The position numbers and the translations under genes are program-made. The notes below the pieces were generated by a model. That model worked only from the letters and a program-made list of their open reading frames with translations. It ran no database searches and was not told the DNA's origin. A DNA stretch of 27,359 nucleotides from a virus, in IMG/VR virus record IMGVR_UViG_3300030102_001340, positions 1-27,359 of that record; one strand, given 5' to 3'. Positions 353-16,686 of this stretch are shown piece by piece (positions within the stretch are counted from its first letter, which is position 1; each line of letters starts with the position of its first letter).

Positions 353-368
353 GGCCGCTTACGCGGCC
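353..368 (-). repeat. Stop-codon hairpin 2 (GGCCGC-GTAA-GCGGCC)
   Basis: A perfect 6-bp stem closes a GTAA loop. In RNA this is GUAA, a GNRA-type tetraloop, and its UAA is the stop codon of the 79-residue gene. The arm codes for Ala-Ala (protein end TIEAA). GGAG of the next gene lies about 7 nt downstream. No U-tract follows. Confidence 0.8.
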
Positions 369-598
369 TCTATTGTTTTGGCGAGGTTGCCCTTCTGGGT
401 ATAAATTAAAACTCGCTTACCTCGAGCTGGACCACACGCAGTATCGAATGCGTAAATCATTGCGTCTTCGACAGCGTGTTTCTTTAAGTCGCTATGGCCT
501 AACCATTCCCAAGAATCTCGCTCCACGTTGTCGCCCTTAATCTCCCAATATCGGTACTCGCGATTCCAAGTTACTTTGATGTCGTTCCAGATTTTCAT
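359..598 (-). CDS. Small hypothetical protein behind promoter/leader A (79 aa)
   Basis: The protein starts MKIWNDIKVTWNREYRYWE. It is rich in Trp, Tyr and charged residues, has no membrane segment, and is not recognised. An open frame continues upstream to 700, but 601-689 aligns without gaps to the non-coding leader at 1642-1730, so the upstream codons are promoter sequence and ATG 598 is preferred. GGAG is 11 nt from this ATG. An ATG at the usual distance instead reads ATG-ACG-TAA, and that stop overlaps the real start as TAATG. The protein ends in TIEAA with the stop inside hairpin 353-368. It is the first gene of the second transcription unit of the accessory run. Confidence 0.7.
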   Translation of the reverse strand: MKIWNDIKVTWNREYRYWEIKGDNVERDSWEWLGHSDLKKHAVEDAMIYAFDTACGPARGKRVLIYTQKGNLAKTIEAA

Positions 599-689
599 TA
601 CGTCATCTTCTCCGTTCTTGTCGAGCACCATTACCCGACAAGGAAAGTATCTCAAAAATAACCCTTGGTGTCTACAACTAGTTGCAACT
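599..689 (-). promoter_or_regulatory. Promoter/leader module A
   Basis: This 89-bp stretch aligns gap-free with 1642-1730 (66 identities by hand count). Reading leftward it holds two 10-bp units, AGTTGCAACT (689-680, itself a palindrome) and AGTTGTAGAC (679-670). A -35-like TAGACA (674-669) follows, then a 17-bp spacer and a weak -10-like GATACT (651-646). Next is a 10-bp hairpin with a 6-nt loop (642-617), AAC, and GGAG (613-610). A start predicted from the -10 would fall near 639, inside the first hairpin arm. The hairpin could therefore act as DNA or as RNA, or the -10 call may be wrong. The module begins right after the stop of the upstream gene. Confidence 0.6.
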
Positions 690-875
690 TTATGTAACAT
701 CAGGCGGGTTGATGACTCCTTCTTGAATCAAGTGTTGAGCGGTTCGACCGAACCATCCTTGCAGATTCCAAGCCAAGCCAGTTTCGACCAAGTGCTGCCA
801 CGCTTCGATTACTTGGTCTTCGTTCTCAGCCTCGACAAAACCCTCAGCTATTCCTATCGCTCGAAAATTATCCAC
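690..875 (-). CDS. Small conserved-type phage protein, GTG start (61 aa)
   Basis: Begins MDNFRAIGIAEGFVEAENED and continues with a helical segment containing WQHLVETGLAWNLQGWFGR. I recall similar AIGIAEGF...AWQ.L..TGLAW.LQGWFGR proteins among phage small genes, but know no function for them. An in-frame ATG exists at 926 but would overlap the upstream gene by more than 30 bp. The GTG at 875 has an excellent GGAGG (885-881) 5 nt upstream, so it is the chosen start. This is the one gene of the run with neither the ATGATG start nor the Glu-Ala-Ala end. Promoter module A begins directly after its TAA. Confidence 0.75.
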   Translation of the reverse strand: MDNFRAIGIAEGFVEAENEDQVIEAWQHLVETGLAWNLQGWFGRTAQHLIQEGVINPPDVT

Positions 876-887
876 GTCTTCCTCCGA

Positions 888-901
888 GCCGCTTACGCGG
901 C
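888..901 (-). repeat. Stop-codon hairpin 3 (GCCGC-GTAA-GCGGC)
   Basis: A perfect 5-bp stem closes a GUAA (GNRA-type) loop containing the stop codon of the 157-residue gene. The arm codes for Ala-Ala (end NNGEAA). GGAGG of the following GTG-start gene is only 2 nt past the stem. No U-tract follows. The sequence GAGGCCGCGTAAGCGGC is the same as in hairpin 2 although the two genes are unrelated. Confidence 0.8.
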
Positions 902-1366
902 CTCCCCATTGTTTATGAACTCCCACTTGACCTTGGCGTTCTCAGCCAGTTTGCTTGCGGCTATGTCTTTGAGGTAAACACTCACCCAGTAAGCGTCTGT
1001 CTCAAACCAGTTATCGACCTCGCAAGACTGATACTCCCAGCACTTGATCATGTTGTAGATATCGTCGGCTCCGAGCTGGCAGCATCCGACGCCACTAATC
1101 AAGCTTTGACTGAAACCGTCTGTGCTGTACTTCAGGTTTGACAGGCATTCTTCGATAAAGATGAACTCATCGAAATCGATTGTGTTTTCGCCGTACCTTG
1201 CAACCAAGCTGTCGATGTTTGCTTGAGCAAGCAGAGCAACCAATTTTTTCGGATCGGTGTCTATCGGGCTTTTGGTCGAACAATTGTAAGCGTGATTGAA
1301 CTTGTTGTTTTGGGCGAACTTCACAATCTCAGCTATGTGGTCCGCGTTTACTAAATATGCACTCAT
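893..1366 (-). CDS. Hypothetical accessory protein with MSAYLVN start (157 aa)
   Basis: The protein begins MSAYLVNADHIAEIVKFAQ and has a Cys-rich centre (GVGCCQLGADDIYNMIKCW, then EYQSCEVDNW). Proteins starting MSAY(L/I)V and containing CxEYQSCE occur in phages, plasmids and cyanobacteria as an uncharacterised group; this is from memory. Its mix of helices with conserved Tyr, Cys and Trp suggests a small globular cytosolic protein. The start is the second ATG of the doublet 1369/1366, 7 nt from AGGA. Codons upstream of it read through a region with three hairpins and are unlikely to be coding. The protein ends in NNGEAA with the stop in hairpin 888-901. Function unknown. Confidence 0.75.
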   Translation of the reverse strand: MSAYLVNADHIAEIVKFAQNNKFNHAYNCSTKSPIDTDPKKLVALLAQANIDSLVARYGENTIDFDEFIFIEECLSNLKYSTDGFSQSLISGVGCCQLGADDIYNMIKCWEYQSCEVDNWFETDAYWVSVYLKDIAASKLAENAKVKWEFINNGEAA

Positions 1367-1443
1367 CATCTTTTCCTTAGTTGGTTTTCCAAGACGCCTT
1401 GCGGCGTTTCGGCTGGTTACCATCCAGCCTCGTCAGTTGGAGT
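1367..1443 (-). other. Structured intercistronic region with three hairpins
   Basis: The 77 nt between two small genes hold three inverted repeats in a row: GGCTGG/CCAGCC with a 7-nt loop (1411-1429), ACGCC/GGCGT with a GCAA GNRA-type loop (1394-1407), and TTGG/CCAA with an AAAA loop (1381-1392). AAGGAAAAGATGATG follows. No U-tract is present. The region probably folds as part of the polycistronic mRNA and may control processing or translation of the 157-residue protein. Confidence 0.6.
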
Positions 1444-1644
1444 TTAGATCGCCCTGACATTGTCAGGGCTGTAGAATCCTTCGGTGTCTCTGATTTCGTT
1501 GATCGCCTTGATTCTTTTTTTGGTGAAGCCCGTGATTGTTCCATACACGGGGAACCAACCGTCATCGTCTAAATTGCTAGGCGAAACGAAGTTTTTGCAG
1601 TTGAGAACCACCCTTTGCCCAATTTTGTAGTTTTGGTCTTCCAT
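1444..1644 (-). CDS. Small SH3-like-barrel candidate behind promoter/leader B (66 aa)
   Basis: The sequence MEDQNYKIGQRVVLNCKNF, then PVYGTITGFTKKRIKAI and TEGFYSPDNVRAI, alternates short beta strands with turns. From memory this resembles small phage proteins with a KOW/SH3-like barrel (G.I.GFTKKR.K...Y..P.NV). No catalytic residues are visible. The start is the second ATG (1644) of an ATGATG doublet, 6 nt from GGAG. The last codons overlap an 8-bp inverted repeat (1451-1469). The C-terminal end is VRAI. The gene is the first one behind promoter module B and precedes the structured region 1367-1443. Confidence 0.7.
   Translation of the reverse strand: MEDQNYKIGQRVVLNCKNFVSPSNLDDDGWFPVYGTITGFTKKRIKAINEIRDTEGFYSPDNVRAI
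1451..1469 (-). repeat. Inverted repeat at the end of the 66-residue gene
   Basis: GCCCTGACA-T-TGTCAGGGC on the + strand gives an 8-bp stem with a 3-nt loop. It sits 4 nt inside the stop codon. Like the three stop-codon hairpins it marks a gene end, but its sequence differs and the stop is outside the loop. No U-tract follows. Confidence 0.6.
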
Positions 1645-1743
1645 CATCTTCTCCGTTTGCGTCGAGCCTCATTGCCCGACACAGATATAATGCCAAAAAG
1701 TGACCCCTGTGTCTACAACTATTTGTAACTAGTTGTAACTATT
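1645..1743 (-). promoter_or_regulatory. Promoter/leader module B
   Basis: Second copy of the module at 601-689, aligned over 1642-1730. Leftward it has three 10-bp units: AGTTACAACT (1740-1731), AGTTACAAAT (1730-1721) and AGTTGTAGAC (1720-1711). TAGACA (1715-1710) follows, then a 17-bp spacer and a -10-like CATTAT (1692-1687). Next come a 10-bp hairpin with a 6-nt loop (1683-1658), AAC, GGAG (1654-1651) and ATGATG. It starts immediately after the oxygenase stop codon. One more 10-bp unit than module A suggests a different number of binding sites for the same regulator. Confidence 0.6.
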
Positions 1744-2460
1744 TTATTGGGACCAAAGCTCAGCGTTATCAATGATTCGCGCTTGGTCGTACAGCCAAAA
1801 CACTAATAGGTAGCGGTCACCAGACTCAACGGGCAGTCCTCGATGCAGGTTAGTAAAGCTTGGGAAGATCAGCGCGTGGCCGGTGGGTAACGGGTTCAGT
1901 ACCCCGTAATTGTGGAACTCAGTGCCGCCGCCTTTGTAATCGTTAGTGTTGAGCGGCACAACGACTGAGATATCGGACGAGTGATCGTGATGCCAAGCGC
2001 CCTGCTTTTTGTCTTTGATGTTGTAGTTGGCAATCTGGATCGACGCAATGTCCGCACAATTACGCTGATATAAGGCCCAAAATATCGGATTCAGGACGTT
2101 TTGCACGACAAACCACATAGACCTATACAGTTCTGGAACATGCTCTCTTAGGACGATTTCAGGGATCTGACGCAGCACATCCTCTTGGTCATTCGGCTCA
2201 AACGGTATTTCTTTTTTCATGTGGTCGATCTCTTCTACCAACATTTTGCAGAACTGCCGGCGAAAGAGCGGAACCTTGAACACGCCATCGAAGCTTTTCT
2301 TGACGTGGTCCATCACCGGCAGTCGGCGCAGATCCTCACGTCCCTGCTGCGCGCGGTATCTCGCAATCTCAGGCAGTGTCTCTTGAACCGACGTGTACAA
2401 CGGTTGGTTGACCATCCAATGACTTTGAATTGAAAGCATGTAATTTTTGAGCTGATACAT
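1744..2460 (-). CDS. 2-oxoglutarate/Fe(II)-dependent oxygenase
   Basis: A 238-residue protein of the prolyl-hydroxylase-like 2OG-Fe(II) superfamily. It would couple 2-oxoglutarate decarboxylation to hydroxylation of an unknown substrate. The iron ligands are visible: H157-x-D159 in GAWHHDHSSDIS and H206 in FPSFTNLHRGLPV. R216 in GDRYLLVFWL is the expected 2OG carboxylate anchor. The strand motif YKGGGTEF (175-182) and GHALIFPSF (194-202) are typical of the double-stranded beta-helix core. Such enzymes are common in aquatic phages, and their targets are mostly unknown. Its start faces the RHH gene across 61 bp. No clear Shine-Dalgarno or leftward promoter was seen. Promoter module B begins at its stop. 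Confidence 0.85.
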   Translation of the reverse strand: MYQLKNYMLSIQSHWMVNQPLYTSVQETLPEIARYRAQQGREDLRRLPVMDHVKKSFDGVFKVPLFRRQFCKMLVEEIDHMKKEIPFEPNDQEDVLRQIPEIVLREHVPELYRSMWFVVQNVLNPIFWALYQRNCADIASIQIANYNIKDKKQGAWHHDHSSDISVVVPLNTNDYKGGGTEFHNYGVLNPLPTGHALIFPSFTNLHRGLPVESGDRYLLVFWLYDQARIIDNAELWSQ

Positions 2461-2464
2461 AGAG

Positions 2465-2493
2465 TTGCTAATGTTTGCAAACAGGCATACAAT
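2465..2493 (+). promoter_or_regulatory. Sigma70-like promoter with internal palindrome (candidate operator)
   Basis: -35 TTGCTA (2465-2470), exact 17-bp spacer, -10 TACAAT (2488-2493). The spacer contains the perfect 12-bp palindrome TGTTTGCAAACA (2472-2483). Its placement would block polymerase if bound, which fits autoregulation by the RHH protein encoded about 30 bp downstream. It also lies within 61 bp of the divergent oxygenase start. Confidence 0.65.
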
Positions 2494-2521
2494 TTAACAC
2501 AAATGAGTAGAGATTTGACCC

Positions 2522-2991: not shown

Positions 2992-5375
2992 ACCAGTCCA
3001 GCGATACCTGACCGCCTAGCTGCGATCTCTCGATCAGCAGCGCGTGGCAGTACAGTCGGCCCAAGCAGTGATGGGTCACCCATTGGTGCTGCTGGTGTTA
3101 CAGGAAGATCCTCGAAGATCGGCATGTCGATGGAGGATTGTGGGGGTTGCATTTGCTCCAACTCTCTCGTCATTCGGTCAAGATCTTCAGGCGTCGCTTC
3201 ATACTCTTGCCGCCCAGAAGTTTCTTCTTGAAATTTTTCAATTCCAGCTTCTCCTGCGCGTAACCCAGCTTGACCCCTAAACCGCATCGCTCCAATACTT
3301 TTCTGGAATTCTTTGTTGTTCAAAATCGAAAAAGCGTCTTCAAACAATTCGTCGGATTTTGGGTCGTCTAACAACACACTTACCAATTTATCGTAATACG
3401 CCTCGCGTTGCTTTTGAGCCAATCTCTTCAAATACTCATCACCGACTTGACCAGTGTAAACTCGTGGCCCAGTTCGTAACGCTGTCAACAATATTTTTTT
3501 CGCGTCATCAGAGATCCCTGCGGCTTGAGCGCCCAAAGTTTCTTCCAAAGCAGTAAATGGTTGAGTCTGGGAGCTACCACGAGGCACCAGATTGAAAGCT
3601 CTATCCATGAAACCAAGCATTTTCTCAAAAGTTTCAAATTCTTCTGGCTCCAATAGCTCTTGCATCATGGCTTTGTTTTTTGGAGCTGCGAAAAATCTTT
3701 GGAAGCCGGGTACGCCTTGTTCGACAGTCTGTACCTTTGTAAATTGATCAAGCTTATCGTTGATGTAAAACTTTTTAACGTCCTGCCATACTTCAGGGTC
3801 TTGAGCCTGAAGGACTCTTTTGGCGTTCCGCATGGATCGCACAGATATGTCGGGGTCGAAAATTTCTTTGATCGATTTGGCAACGCTTTTGTCGGCACCC
3901 TCAAAAATTTTGGACATTCGACCAATCGCAGACCGCTCAGTTGCTTGCAAGTTTGGTTTGGTTGGATCAAATACCCGATTGGCTAAGTCATACAGCGGGT
4001 CTGCTTCTTTGAGTAGTTTTGTGACTTCTTCGCGAAACCCGATAACCAACGGCGCGTCCGTAGTTCCTAGACTATCTTTTACAACTTTTTCCATGTCCGT
4101 TGTTCTTCGGTCATGGATATCCATGATGTTGGTCAGAGGCACTTCTACTTCGACCTCTTGCATCAAAACTTCGCCTTGATTTCCAATCTTGGGGAGACCT
4201 TGTGCGTCCAAAATTGGCCGCTCTTCAATTTTAACTTCCATAAGAGCGCGTCGGAAAGCAGTAGCGGCGTCTCGTGTGGACTCTGGTGCTTTAGTGTTTG
4301 CGATAACTTGATCTAATCTCGCTACTAAATCTGAAGTGTCAACTGGAACCTGCTCAGGGTTTTCGCGAATGATGTTATATAATTTTGTCGCCCGATCTGT
4401 CCGACGCCGCGTCAACTCTTTCATCGCCTCTTTAGCAGCAGCAGCTACTCGCTCTGCGGGAGAGCCAAATGATTTGCTTGCAAGAGAGCCTATTGAGTCG
4501 GCAAAAACATTTATCGCTTCTCGCGCTTTTTGAGCACGAGAACCATACATCTGTTGGATTCTAACGATCTGCGGTTGGCGGCTTAGAAAATACTGAAGCT
4601 GAACACCCAAAGCACCAGAAGCAACATCTGCTGCCTCTGCTGGGGTCAATTTGAAGCCCATCTTTGCTGCTTCGTCAATCGTTCCCTGAACACCCGCTCG
4701 TAAATTGACTAGATACTTCAACGCCTCTTCGCGGCCTTTGAACTTCGTAAACAGGTTCCTGACTGGACCCTGCCCGAAAGGGATTGCTGAGAAGGCAACT
4801 GACAAGCCCAAATCTTTCGCAGCAGCTAGCTGCTCTTCTGGGGGAAGATTGTAAAATTGGTCTATTAAAAGCCCTCTAGCGCCCCTCACTGCTGCTCCCG
4901 TCGTAGCAGCCCCAGTTGCCCCGCCAAACATGGTCGTACCCAAAACAATGCCGGATAACGCAAGAGGATGTTTGACTGGGGATCTTTGCGCTAATTTTAC
5001 GCCTTGCTCGAAGCCTTTCTGTCCGCCTTTGATGGCTCCAGCCATGTCTGCAACAATCGTGGTCGCAGGTGCAATATTTGGGTACAGATATTCGTCAAGA
5101 ACGCTTGCATCTTCAGGTCGCTCAAACTCCCTTTGCAGCTCACCGGCATCGTCCCGATAAAAGATATCGCCATCTATCATCTCGTATCGATATGCCGCAA
5201 GCGGATCGTCTGGGAAACGCTCAGACGCTAGAAACTCAAGCATTGTGTTGTCGTCAAAAAACAACGACGATTTGGCTTTTCGTAAACCGTAGTCAGGGTC
5301 ATCTGCCTGTTGTTGCTCAGCCCTCTTGCGCTTCAAAAAGTCAATTTGCGCTTGGTAATCTTCCATCGCAGACAT
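2988..5375 (-). CDS. Probable internal virion (ejection) protein (795 aa)
   Basis: Largely helical and charged throughout, with one glycine-rich hydrophobic stretch at about 138-167 (ALSGIVLGTTMFGGATGAAT) that could insert in a membrane. The N-terminus (YQAQIDFLKRKRAEQQQ) looks like a coiled coil. The C-terminus ends AADREIAARRSGIAGLV, a tail I recall from other marine phage virion proteins. It is the last gene of the late operon, after three similar large proteins. This matches the position of the ejected proteins of P22- and T7-like phages. No lytic transglycosylase or peptidase motif was seen. It starts 2 nt after the previous stop. The role is inferred from position and composition. Confidence 0.6.
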   Translation of the reverse strand: MSAMEDYQAQIDFLKRKRAEQQQADDPDYGLRKAKSSLFFDDNTMLEFLASERFPDDPLAAYRYEMIDGDIFYRDDAGELQREFERPEDASVLDEYLYPNIAPATTIVADMAGAIKGGQKGFEQGVKLAQRSPVKHPLALSGIVLGTTMFGGATGAATTGAAVRGARGLLIDQFYNLPPEEQLAAAKDLGLSVAFSAIPFGQGPVRNLFTKFKGREEALKYLVNLRAGVQGTIDEAAKMGFKLTPAEAADVASGALGVQLQYFLSRQPQIVRIQQMYGSRAQKAREAINVFADSIGSLASKSFGSPAERVAAAAKEAMKELTRRRTDRATKLYNIIRENPEQVPVDTSDLVARLDQVIANTKAPESTRDAATAFRRALMEVKIEERPILDAQGLPKIGNQGEVLMQEVEVEVPLTNIMDIHDRRTTDMEKVVKDSLGTTDAPLVIGFREEVTKLLKEADPLYDLANRVFDPTKPNLQATERSAIGRMSKIFEGADKSVAKSIKEIFDPDISVRSMRNAKRVLQAQDPEVWQDVKKFYINDKLDQFTKVQTVEQGVPGFQRFFAAPKNKAMMQELLEPEEFETFEKMLGFMDRAFNLVPRGSSQTQPFTALEETLGAQAAGISDDAKKILLTALRTGPRVYTGQVGDEYLKRLAQKQREAYYDKLVSVLLDDPKSDELFEDAFSILNNKEFQKSIGAMRFRGQAGLRAGEAGIEKFQEETSGRQEYEATPEDLDRMTRELEQMQPPQSSIDMPIFEDLPVTPAAPMGDPSLLGPTVLPRAADREIAARRSGIAGLV

Positions 5376-5377
5376 AG

Positions 5378-6892
5378 CTACATTTCCTCAATTTGCGCCA
5401 ATAACACGTCTTTTTGCTCTCTGCTCAAATCGGGGTTGTCTTCAATAGACTGTCTCAGAGCCTCTGGCGTCATCGCGCTTACAGACTCTGCATCGGCTCG
5501 ATTACGACGCTCTTGATCGGTTTGAAATTTTTTGAACCTTGATTCAATTCGGTCATAGTCTCCGTAGAATTTTTTGCCTTTAGCATCTGCTTTTGCTTTC
5601 GCTATGAACTGTTTGTCCTCTTCAGTCAAAAACAAATCTTTTTTGTCCGCTCGCCATTGACGCTTCCATTGTCCCATGTGGCCTCGCACTTGTGTGCCGT
5701 CCAACTTGCGGTTTTGTTTTCGCGCCTCTTCAGTGAACCGGCTCAACTCTTCCGTATATGCGTTGACAAACTCTTGTTTTTTTAGAGCCGCACGTCGCTG
5801 TATATCAATCGAGCGCAAAAACCCTTCGTAAGTTTGACCCAGAAATGGGGCGCTTTCTTTGAACAACTCCATTTCTGCGTTTGAGACTGCGCCTTTTGTT
5901 TGAGATACATTGGCCAAAGCGAATCCGATAGTGATAGTCGCTAACGCCTCTTGTTTACCGACCTTGCTTAAATCAACACCCAACCACGGCAACATCGGGC
6001 CAAAAAACTGTCTGAAAGGTAAACTTATTTGATCAAGACGACCAAAACCCTCTTCGCCCAAATCTCCCGCGATAAGCTCAGCCTGCGTCAAATTGTCTAA
6101 TTGGGCGAATGCCTTATCTGCTATTTCATTTAACTCAGTTTGCTCTTTGCTGACAGCCTTGGCGTCTTCCTTACTCAAAGTGGTTTCGGCAGCTTCGTCT
6201 GGCAAGTCCGAAACGACCACTGGGTTTTGGGTGCGCAAGATTCTCTGAAGTTCCTTACCTTGAGATTTTTTATCAAAGCTACGCGTAATTTTCCTGCCTG
6301 TGAATTGACCCTCTGCGTCCACCTCGTCATACGACAAAGTAACTAAATCCGCATCGCCAAAATTTTGATTTTGTATCATATCCATAGCGAATTTTTGAAT
6401 TCGCTCTTCTGCTTTACGCTCGTCTTCCATGGCCAATTTCGCGGCCTCTAACGCAATAGCCTGACGTTGCTTTCGGCGCTCGTCTCGATCCGCTCTCATG
6501 CGTGCAGAAAAAGTATTGAATCCTGCGGCTATACCGGGAAACGCTCCAGCGGTCGGAGGTTGCGACATGATCCCTGCGCCCAAATCACTTAGCAGATCGT
6601 AAAAGGACAGCTTATCGGGTGGCTCGTACAAACCTTTTAGCCGCTCTTGATATCTAGCAGACTGAGTTTCGTAATTTACAGGAGACAACGCTTTCGTAAG
6701 CATTCTCAGGTATTCGCCATTGAGGGACGGAGGCGCTTGTCTGATATCTTCTTGGTCATCGGCGAACTGCGTCATATCTAATGGCTTCAGGCCGGTGCTG
6801 GTCGAATAGTCTTCAAAAACATCAACATTATTGATGCCTCCGTCCTGAAACCCTTTTATCTGCTCTTCCATTTGCGCCCTCGATATGGCCAT
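5378..6892 (-). CDS. Probable internal virion protein (504 aa)
   Basis: Starts MAISRAQMEEQIKGFQDGG. Its first seven residues are identical to those of the major capsid protein. A small hydrophobic region, LGAGIMSQPPTAGAFPGIAA (about 104-123), is followed by a long charged helix (RADRDERRKQRQ...). The second half contains TITIGFALANVSQTKGAVSN followed by AEMELFKESAPFLG, a pattern I associate with large internal virion proteins of marine podoviruses (from memory). The C-terminus is helical and acidic. The start overlaps the upstream stop as TGATG. No enzyme motif is visible. The ejection role is inferred from its place between other candidates. Confidence 0.55.
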   Translation of the reverse strand: MAISRAQMEEQIKGFQDGGINNVDVFEDYSTSTGLKPLDMTQFADDQEDIRQAPPSLNGEYLRMLTKALSPVNYETQSARYQERLKGLYEPPDKLSFYDLLSDLGAGIMSQPPTAGAFPGIAAGFNTFSARMRADRDERRKQRQAIALEAAKLAMEDERKAEERIQKFAMDMIQNQNFGDADLVTLSYDEVDAEGQFTGRKITRSFDKKSQGKELQRILRTQNPVVVSDLPDEAAETTLSKEDAKAVSKEQTELNEIADKAFAQLDNLTQAELIAGDLGEEGFGRLDQISLPFRQFFGPMLPWLGVDLSKVGKQEALATITIGFALANVSQTKGAVSNAEMELFKESAPFLGQTYEGFLRSIDIQRRAALKKQEFVNAYTEELSRFTEEARKQNRKLDGTQVRGHMGQWKRQWRADKKDLFLTEEDKQFIAKAKADAKGKKFYGDYDRIESRFKKFQTDQERRNRADAESVSAMTPEALRQSIEDNPDLSREQKDVLLAQIEEM

Positions 6893-8727
6893 CAGACGGC
6901 TCTCTGCGGTTGTCCGTAGAAATTACCCAAGGCACCTAATGTCGATAAGCCCGTCCCCAAACCAGCCTGTAACGCGCTTGGCGGGGGTGTAAACGACGTT
7001 TGCGTCTGACTGAACCCAGCGGGTGCCATCTGCACAAACGGCATCAAGGCTTGGTATTGGGCCAACGGAGCTTGTTGTGCCTGCAGCAGCCCTGCTCTTT
7101 GAGCATCAAGCTCACGCTGCCGCTGCTGCTGTTGTTGAGCGCCTATACCGCCAAGTTGTGCAACGTCTGCGGCAGTAGCTTGCTGAGCCTGTGACCCCAG
7201 ACCCGTCAGGAATCCACCAAAACCCTGTCGGGCTTGTTGCAGTGTCTGGCCTGCTGCAGCCTGTTGTTGGCCTATCTGCCCAAACTGCGCGGCTTGCTGC
7301 CCCGCAATCCCCATTGCCTGCTGCCCTGCTTGCGCTCTCGCGCCAGCCGCTTGCTGCCCCAAAGCGCCGAGCTGTTGACCTAGACCTGTGCCGGCTTGGA
7401 ATCTTTGCTGTGCTTGCTGACCCAGCTGACCCGCTAGTTGCTGCTGAGCACCCAATCCTTGCTGCGCTGTCTGGCCCAGCTGCTGGCCTAGAGCCTGCTG
7501 ACTCGCAAGCTGTTGCTGTGCGGTCTGTTGAATCAGGTTACCGAACGCAGAGCCTGCACCAAGTTTTTGTTGGGCCGCTTGTGATAGCTGACCCGACAAT
7601 CCTGTTCGCGCGCCGTATCGTTGACCGCCTAATGACGCCAACCCTGATGCTGCAGATCTTGCGGCTTGTCGCGCTCTTTCGTCCTCGCCTATAGCCGTTT
7701 GCTGCGCCCTCTGGAAGCCTGCAGAGCGTAGTCCGCCTACCTCCTTAGCCAACCCCCTACCCAGCGCCTCTGCTCGCTCAGCGGCTGTCAGACGCGCTCT
7801 GGAGCCGAATGCAGACTCTCCACCCGTTTGAATGTCCCTTGCTCTTTGAGCGATGTCCGACTGCGCTAGTCCTTTGAGTGCGTCCTCAATGCTTTGCTGA
7901 ACCACGCCCTCTTCATAGGGGTCAAAATACTTTGAAGTTGCCTCAGCGATATCGAAATCGCCGGTTGTACCGCGTAGTAACCGCTCAGACTCACGCAGTC
8001 CCTGCGAAAGCTCCTCTGCGCCTATGGCTCCGATTCCTACCGCATCAGTGACATCTCGCCCGAACTCATCGTATACCCTGCGACCTTGCTGACGTGCGCG
8101 CGCAAGATCCATGCCGAACTGGTCTGCCGCTTGACGACCAAGCTGCTCTTGTTGTCCAAGCTGCTGGGCGAACCTGCCTACTGCTCCAGTCTGGAACCCT
8201 GCGAGGTCAGCTAAATCACCCCGTAGTCGTTCTTCTGCGGTCAGTGCTCTGCCTCGTGCCTGCTCGACGCCTGTCAAAGCATCTAGCAAACCACGGTCAC
8301 GTTGATCAAGTGCGAAGCGCGCACCCGATTGGATTTCTTGCAACGCTCGCGCTTGTGCTAAGGCTTGGTCCGTCAGACCGCCTTCCAGCGCACCAATCCC
8401 AGCTCTTGCCTGCTGCGCGGCTTCTTGAATGAACGGTTGCTGTACCCCTACCGCTTGTCGCGCGAGTTGTGCTGCGCGAATCTGGTCCGGTGTGAGACCG
8501 GCAATCTCTTGGGGTATGACGAGCGGACGACCTTGATCGTCAAAGAAAACACGCTCAGCGGCTCTGAACGCGCCCGGTATGAACCCGCCTTCACCCGCCA
8601 ATCCAAACAATAGTTGTTGCGTGATTGGGTCAAGCTGACGGTCGGAGCGTTGAATAGACTCAACGAACGGTAACTCTGGAGACCCAGTGACGGCCTGATC
8701 AGGTATTTCAGTGGTCGCTTCTGCCAT
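6892..8727 (-). CDS. Gln/Ala/Gly-rich internal virion protein (611 aa)
   Basis: Residues 1-340 are a mixed helical region. It contains FDPYEEGVVQQSIEDALKGL and TGGESAFGSRARLTAAER (about 268-318), which I recall as a conserved segment of virion proteins in marine podoviruses. Residues about 360-545 are low complexity, dominated by Q, A, G and L in loose 7-11-residue repeats (GQQLGQTAQQGLGAQQQLA). The end is Pro/Gln-rich. Such segments may form extended helical bundles inside the capsid or in the ejection channel. GAGGA lies 7 nt before ATG 8727. It sits between two other ejection candidates. The Q-rich part produces long meaningless open frames on the other strand. Confidence 0.6.
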   Translation of the reverse strand: MAEATTEIPDQAVTGSPELPFVESIQRSDRQLDPITQQLLFGLAGEGGFIPGAFRAAERVFFDDQGRPLVIPQEIAGLTPDQIRAAQLARQAVGVQQPFIQEAAQQARAGIGALEGGLTDQALAQARALQEIQSGARFALDQRDRGLLDALTGVEQARGRALTAEERLRGDLADLAGFQTGAVGRFAQQLGQQEQLGRQAADQFGMDLARARQQGRRVYDEFGRDVTDAVGIGAIGAEELSQGLRESERLLRGTTGDFDIAEATSKYFDPYEEGVVQQSIEDALKGLAQSDIAQRARDIQTGGESAFGSRARLTAAERAEALGRGLAKEVGGLRSAGFQRAQQTAIGEDERARQAARSAASGLASLGGQRYGARTGLSGQLSQAAQQKLGAGSAFGNLIQQTAQQQLASQQALGQQLGQTAQQGLGAQQQLAGQLGQQAQQRFQAGTGLGQQLGALGQQAAGARAQAGQQAMGIAGQQAAQFGQIGQQQAAAGQTLQQARQGFGGFLTGLGSQAQQATAADVAQLGGIGAQQQQQRQRELDAQRAGLLQAQQAPLAQYQALMPFVQMAPAGFSQTQTSFTPPPSALQAGLGTGLSTLGALGNFYGQPQRAV

Positions 8728-16398: not shown

Positions 16399-16686
16399 CT
16401 ATCGACCGTACAATCCGCTGTTCTTGCTAGACGGCTTTCTCATTCCACCCTTGGCTGCACCTTTCGCCCTCATAGCCCCGCCTTTGGCTGCACCTTTGGC
16501 CTTCATAGCCCCGCCTTTCGAGTACCCTTTGGTTTTCATCATGGCACCTTTTTTAGCTGCGCCGCCATTCTTCATCCCGCCGGGCTTGTTCATGGCTTTC
16601 TTGCCGCCCATAGCGCCGCCTTTGGTGCTCATCTTACTGGTCATTTTTCCGCCTCTTCTCATACCTTTCGGTTTTCTTCCTGCCAT
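16399..16686 (-). CDS. Very basic Lys/Gly/Ala/Met repeat protein (95 aa)
   Basis: Begins MAGRKPKGMRRGGKMTSKMS and is almost entirely K, R, G, A and M. The C-terminal half has an 11-residue tandem repeat, KGGAM(K/R)AKGAA, matched by a 33-bp DNA repeat at 16451-16516. ATG 16686 was chosen because AAGGAG lies 8 nt before it; the longer upstream frame overlaps the previous gene and lacks such a site. It is probably disordered and DNA-binding, perhaps neutralising packaged DNA. Small basic proteins of this kind accompany virion genes in marine phages. No enzyme motif is present. Confidence 0.65.
   Translation of the reverse strand: MAGRKPKGMRRGGKMTSKMSTKGGAMGGKKAMNKPGGMKNGGAAKKGAMMKTKGYSKGGAMKAKGAAKGGAMRAKGAAKGGMRKPSSKNSGLYGR
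16451..16516 (-). repeat. 33-bp tandem repeat, two units
   Basis: Units 16451-16483 and 16484-16516 differ at only a few bases and encode KGGAMKAKGAA and KGGAMRAKGAA. The period is a whole number of codons, so copy number can change without breaking the frame. Confidence 0.75.

Follow-up and report, generated by a model that had tools for sequence, protein, structure and literature searches.

Why should two unrelated genes in one phage genome stand behind closely similar stretches of about a hundred base pairs? The question was raised by the window, that is, the whole stretch of 27,359 nt analysed here. It is a 27.4-kb virus contig with an SU10-type portal; the named phages closest to it by this protein include Pelagibacter phage HTVC023P and Roseobacter phages CRP-901/902, with 44-51% identity.

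Anatomy of the repeated module

The initial annotation aligned positions 601-689 with 1642-1730 without a gap and counted 66 identities in 89 nt. The count is exact, and this pair is the top 89-mer self-match across the whole window; in dinucleotide shuffles of the first 4 kb (n = 20), the best self-match reached 43-46 of 89. A repeat search extends the pair to 598-698 and 1639-1739 (101 nt, 73% identity). The edges are sharp on both sides: measured in 10-bp bins, identity is down at noise level immediately beyond 598-700. The sense strand of both copies is the minus strand. Based on the repeat match and on conservation in relatives, the proximal copy A covers 1639-1741 and begins directly after the stop codon of a 2OG-Fe(II) oxygenase gene, while the distal copy B covers 598-700 and overlaps the stop codon of its upstream gene. 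The genes behind the two copies are indeed unrelated: copy A precedes a gene of 66-67 amino acids (1444-1647, minus strand), and copy B one of 79 amino acids (359-598, minus strand), which starts at 598, just beyond the interval first noted. Searches of the two open reading frames against Pfam and PADLOC placed neither in a known family.

The four blocks named at the outset, namely the 10-bp repeats, TAGACA, the hairpin and the SD/start, are real. Copy A opens with three 10-bp direct repeats, AGTTACAACT, AGTTACAAAT and AGTTGTAGAC (1711-1740), the last of which overlaps the -35 element, and copy B with two, AGTTGCAACT and AGTTGTAGAC (670-689). The promoter of copy A (1687-1715) consists of TAGACA, 17 bp and a TG-extended CATTAT (TGg-CATTAT), and that of copy B (646-674) of TAGACA, 17 bp and a TG-extended GATACT (TGa-GATACT). 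A leader hairpin follows at 1659-1682 in copy A and at 618-641 in copy B. Each copy then ends in the SD/start block GGAGAAGATGAyG, which reads GGAGAAGATGATG in copy A (1642-1654) and GGAGAAGATGACG in copy B (601-613), where the gene's own ATG comes next, at 598.

Both promoters have the layout of a sigma70 extended -10 promoter, with hexamers 17 bp apart and TGn before the -10. A scan with the -35/-10 consensus gave three matches against 3.1 expected in shuffled sequence; such matches are thus no commoner than in shuffled sequence, and what speaks for a promoter is its conservation and its placement. The TTTTG preceding the -10 is kept in 13 of the 13 close copies described below, and the copy A promoter as a whole is kept in relatives. 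From sequence of this kind we infer that the module has promoter activity.

Among 12 promoters taken from the wider group, self-similarity upstream of the -35 peaks at 10 bp, with a z-score of 9.5; this value overstates independence because the 12 promoters are interrelated and hand-chosen. This phased operator is likely bound by a phage or host regulator. As a lead, the best local candidate is a small ribbon-helix-helix-like protein encoded at 2522-2749 on the plus strand, tentatively named from a weak Pfam match and its neighbourhood. It is a lead only, since the family call lies below curated cutoffs (Pfam RHH_1, E 0.0048); its helices fit the ribbon-helix-helix fold, and structure-search matches were not significant. 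The gene is kept beside the oxygenase gene in most of the module-bearing group. Its predicted promoter (2465-2493, plus strand; TTGCTA-17-TACAAT) overlaps TTGC motifs 10 bp apart. We also note that the TTGC motifs by this gene (2465-2521, plus strand) resemble the operator repeats of the module.

Copies in relatives and exchange of the genes behind them

A search with the oxygenase yielded 48 loci, and an iterated module profile search was run over all of them. Further copies were found in relatives, with the blocks kept. The full module occurs in 13 copies at seven close loci including the window, and diverged copies are also present in L028. The six further close loci were obtained by counting L005/L034 and L050/L056 once each, and all seven distinct loci are metagenomic contigs. 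The copies are confined to one island of 1-2.6 kb behind the oxygenase gene (1744-2460, minus strand, assigned by family search), which forms the conserved left border of the island. Pattern scans revealed no further contigs with the full module. A hairpin-only pattern matched several unrelated viral contigs, none of which contains a full copy according to the module HMM. The module pattern also gave three matches in bacterial genomes; these were judged to be chance and set aside, the best module HMM E value being 0.43. Named phages gave no DNA matches to the island, and the accessory genes had essentially no match in Pfam and PADLOC. Among relatives with 55-70% oxygenase protein identity, many hold a phased promoter of the TAGACATGGACACGG..TATAAT type at the same place, preceding yet other genes and usually without a hairpin.

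The distribution of copies bears on the earlier likening of the module to phage early-promoter families. If the copies were early promoters for host RNA polymerase and the hairpin mattered little, the sigma70-like elements would fit, and accessory phage genes are in general often early. However, the 48.6-kb relative (L073) has two copies only, both inside the island and none elsewhere, and the island itself is located where the structural gene block ends. The likeness therefore holds only in part, as copies are confined to one accessory island and the genome-wide spread of such a family is not seen. We regard this explanation as unlikely, though it deserves some weight.

Two types of copy, A and B, can be told apart, and both predate the split of these phages. 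The proximal place is occupied by type A in the window, L073, L078 and L050 and by type B in L076, L004 and L006; the distal place, where a second copy exists, holds the other type. The segment from the spacer to the hairpin tracks type (89.5% identity within types vs 61.2% between them) and does not track position (73.1% at the same position vs 77.6% at different positions). Constant in both types are the operator core (about 95%) and the SD block (about 91%). Over 60 bp, the proximal type A module of L073 matches the distal one of L004 exactly.

Meanwhile, the genes behind the modules change. Simple ORF calls give 23 gene families in the seven loci, and almost every module is followed by a different gene. 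Family F0 is found after a type B module in L006 and after a type A one in L050; family F5 follows a module in L076 and has none in L006. DNA homology between the phages spans the oxygenase gene and the module and ends at the start codon. The gene behind the type A module of L004 (about 3358-4164, plus strand) encodes an N-terminus, MKILSFGGGVDSSAIL, that resembles PAPS-reductase/ATP-pyrophosphatase-type proteins, with no Pfam match at E 0.01.

If the copies were two ordinary promoters, products of a single old duplication and passed on vertically, with gene turnover unrelated and the module taking no part in exchange, the age of the two types would fit, and functional constraint alone could preserve the blocks. 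However, the swapped places of the types and the presence of F0 behind both require recombination at or in the modules, and the 13-nt SD/start block is common also to genes without a module. Vertical inheritance of this kind is thus quite improbable.

The swapping of types, the differing genes and the end of homology at the start codon together indicate that the module is an exchanged expression cassette. Sequence comparison of the loci shows exchange on both sides of the module and probably within it, and we infer that it proceeds by homologous recombination at the conserved blocks. The proposal that a control module stands before several unrelated accessory genes is accordingly strongly supported, with 13 copies at seven loci before mostly different genes. 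Simple copying in front of genes is not the whole story, as two diverged types coexist and have changed places by recombination. The anatomy and conservation of the module, its confinement to the island, the swapping of types and the replacement of genes up to the start codon can be read from the sequences themselves.

We therefore consider it probable that the repeat is a portable promoter-leader-start expression cassette for plug-in genes, kept while the genes behind it are exchanged. In such a cassette, helically phased 10-bp operator-like repeats would overlap the -35 of a sigma70-type extended -10 promoter, and a protein, perhaps the neighbouring ribbon-helix-helix-like one, would bind them. 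The first nucleotides of the transcript would fold into a stem-loop, followed a few nucleotides later by a strong SD and the start codon, and the 5'-terminal hairpin may shield the mRNA from 5'-end-dependent decay (RNase E/RppH). The unit of about 100 bp would stay at fixed places of the island while the gene behind it gets replaced. The 21-bp operator/-35 core and the SD/start block would serve as short homologies for phage or host recombination, which could join a new gene or the other module type.

The leader hairpin and the promoterless linkers

Folding and pair conservation place the leader hairpin at or next to the predicted 5' end of the transcript; the predicted start, about 7 nt past the -10, coincides with the stem base. 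The two leaders in the window have predicted folding energies of -15.6 and -13.2 kcal/mol (z about -3.6). Across 15 copies, 95.8% of stem pair cells are standard pairs, vs 37-50% in slid controls, and the outermost stem pair alternates between G-C and U-A. In the proximal copy of L073 the stem is retained with a different 3' arm. A role of the hairpin as a terminator was rejected, as no U-run follows the stem. Most of the divergent relatives have the promoter but lack the leader hairpin, which the arrangement can therefore do without. By analogy with known 5'-terminal stem-loops, it likely slows 5'-end-dependent decay.

The conserved stem sits just ahead of the SD, as it would if the hairpin were a regulatory switch of translation, either an attenuator or a binding site for a small RNA or an RNA-binding protein. 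Yet the stem has no U-run, the folds show no alternative pairing over the SD, the loop sequence differs between types A and B, and L073 has a different 3' arm. Such a switch is, in our judgement, very unlikely.

The SD/start block reaches beyond the module. With at most two changes, GGAGAAGATGATG has 30 occurrences across the seven islands, almost all of them where a gene starts. In the window there are five such blocks, all in the island, vs 0.64 expected, and in the 48.6-kb relative none (at most one change) lies outside the island. Several of the genes that lack a module are preceded by linkers of other kinds, which hairpin and block scans located on the minus strand of the window. One kind is a hairpin, GCCGC-GUAA-GCGGC or GCAUAAGC, that holds the UAA stop codon of the upstream gene in its loop, so that the proteins end in ..EAA. 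It is found at 888-904 (GCCGC-GTAA-GCGGC in the DNA), at 354-370, followed by an SD/start at 333-345, and at 100-116, followed by an SD/start at 83-95. Read on the plus strand, 100-116 and 354-370 look like terminators for antisense transcription.

Another promoterless linker, at 1387-1442 (minus strand) between two accessory genes, is probably a type I hammerhead ribozyme, with cleavage predicted between 1393 and 1392. Its core is intact (CUGACGA, GAAA and GUC, matching CUGANGA/GAAA/NUH) and the three stems are present. When 1387-1442 was searched alone, Rfam Hammerhead_1 matched with E 0.002 and 22.1 bits, below the gathering threshold of 34; Rfam over 1-2800 at E<=1 gave no match, and neither did 12 relatives at the Rfam gathering threshold. 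The same element stands before different genes in L050, L006, L078 and L025/L026 and twice in L028, and its stems covary. Downstream of it lie a hairpin, TTGGAAAACCAA (1381-1392), and an SD/start (1364-1376). Cleavage would yield an RNA starting with UUGGAAAACCAA, with the small hairpin just ahead of the SD.

Tentatively, the island may be built from interchangeable linkers (promoter plus hairpin, hammerhead plus hairpin, stop-codon hairpin), all ending in the same SD/start block. Most accessory genes would thereby receive a hairpin-bearing mRNA end or junction directly before one ribosome site, by transcription start or by ribozyme cleavage, and the linkers would make up a natural kit of standard parts for plug-in genes. 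In L030 (about 6950-7060) and in L027, downstream of the oxygenase gene, a conserved and structured-looking stretch, CCCCGAAAGAGCGCGTTCCCGTCCGCG...GGCGGGACTAAT, precedes an SD; it may be another structured RNA linker. Sequence similar to this stretch also occurs in L073 near 16520-16560. In the same relative, a gene pair joined by the hairpin GCCGCGTAAGCGGC (5870-5886, plus strand) lies near a serine-recombinase-like gene (4246-5034, minus strand); these phages may be temperate.

The linkers also bear on whether the module serves a site-specific recombinase as its target, similar to att or attC, with its promoter appearance secondary. Gene exchange does stop at the module edge, and the 48.6-kb relative carries the recombinase-like gene just mentioned. 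However, the blocks read -35, extended -10, SD and start in the correct order and spacing, the promoterless linkers share the same start block, and gene exchange occurs at linkers without a module too. We give this explanation very little credence.

Relation to known systems and significance

The expression cassette proposed here recalls several known arrangements. Phage morons are accessory genes with their own promoter and terminator. As with morons, additional genes under a promoter of their own lie among conserved phage genes. Unlike in morons, the promoter unit is conserved while the genes change, no per-gene terminator is seen, and the clusters are polycistronic with special linkers.

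The PeSLs (promoter early stem-loop) of T4-type phages are described as mobile regulatory cassettes (Arbiol 2010, Comeau 2014, as cited in PMC4503421), and as short promoter and stem-loop units dispersed in a hypervariable region that are linked to the shuffling of small accessory genes among related phages (as summarised in PMC4503421). To judge from the title of Comeau 2014 (via PMC4503421), their stem-loop is a terminator combined with the promoter. The module resembles them in that a promoter unit recurs within a hypervariable region and is associated with accessory gene shuffling among relatives. It differs in that its stem-loop comes after the promoter, in the 5' leader, lacks a U-run and is not a terminator; in that it also carries an SD, a start codon and an operator-like 10-bp array; and in that its promoter is generic, sigma70-like and unrelated to T4. 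Since the stem-loop lies in the leader and is not a terminator, and since the present phages, with their SU10-type portal, are unrelated to T4, the module is not a PeSL.

Stem-loops at the 5' terminus stabilise mRNA, for example that of ompA (Emory 1992, as cited in PMC7509114). As in ompA, the stem-loop of the module is predicted to form the extreme 5' end of the mRNA, closely followed by a strong SD; unlike that of ompA, it belongs to an exchanged cassette, and stabilisation would be its presumed effect here. Hammerhead ribozymes flank single genes in prophages, with the processing of polycistronic phage RNA as their proposed role (PMC3088659). The present linker, too, is probably a type I hammerhead and lies between small accessory genes; in contrast to the prophage elements, each one here leads into a short 5' hairpin and then the standard SD/start block of the island, and it accompanies a promoter module with the same ending.

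Mobile regulatory cassettes, known from T4-type phages, would thus also exist, with a different architecture, in unrelated marine phages, and the cassette offers a simple rule by which newly arrived orphan genes could be expressed immediately. The possible set of interchangeable linkers, ribozymes included, is the more novel part compared with the cassette itself. The hammerhead linker, with its same hairpin/SD/start ending, suggests a role for phage ribozymes in making new mRNA 5' ends for plug-in genes.
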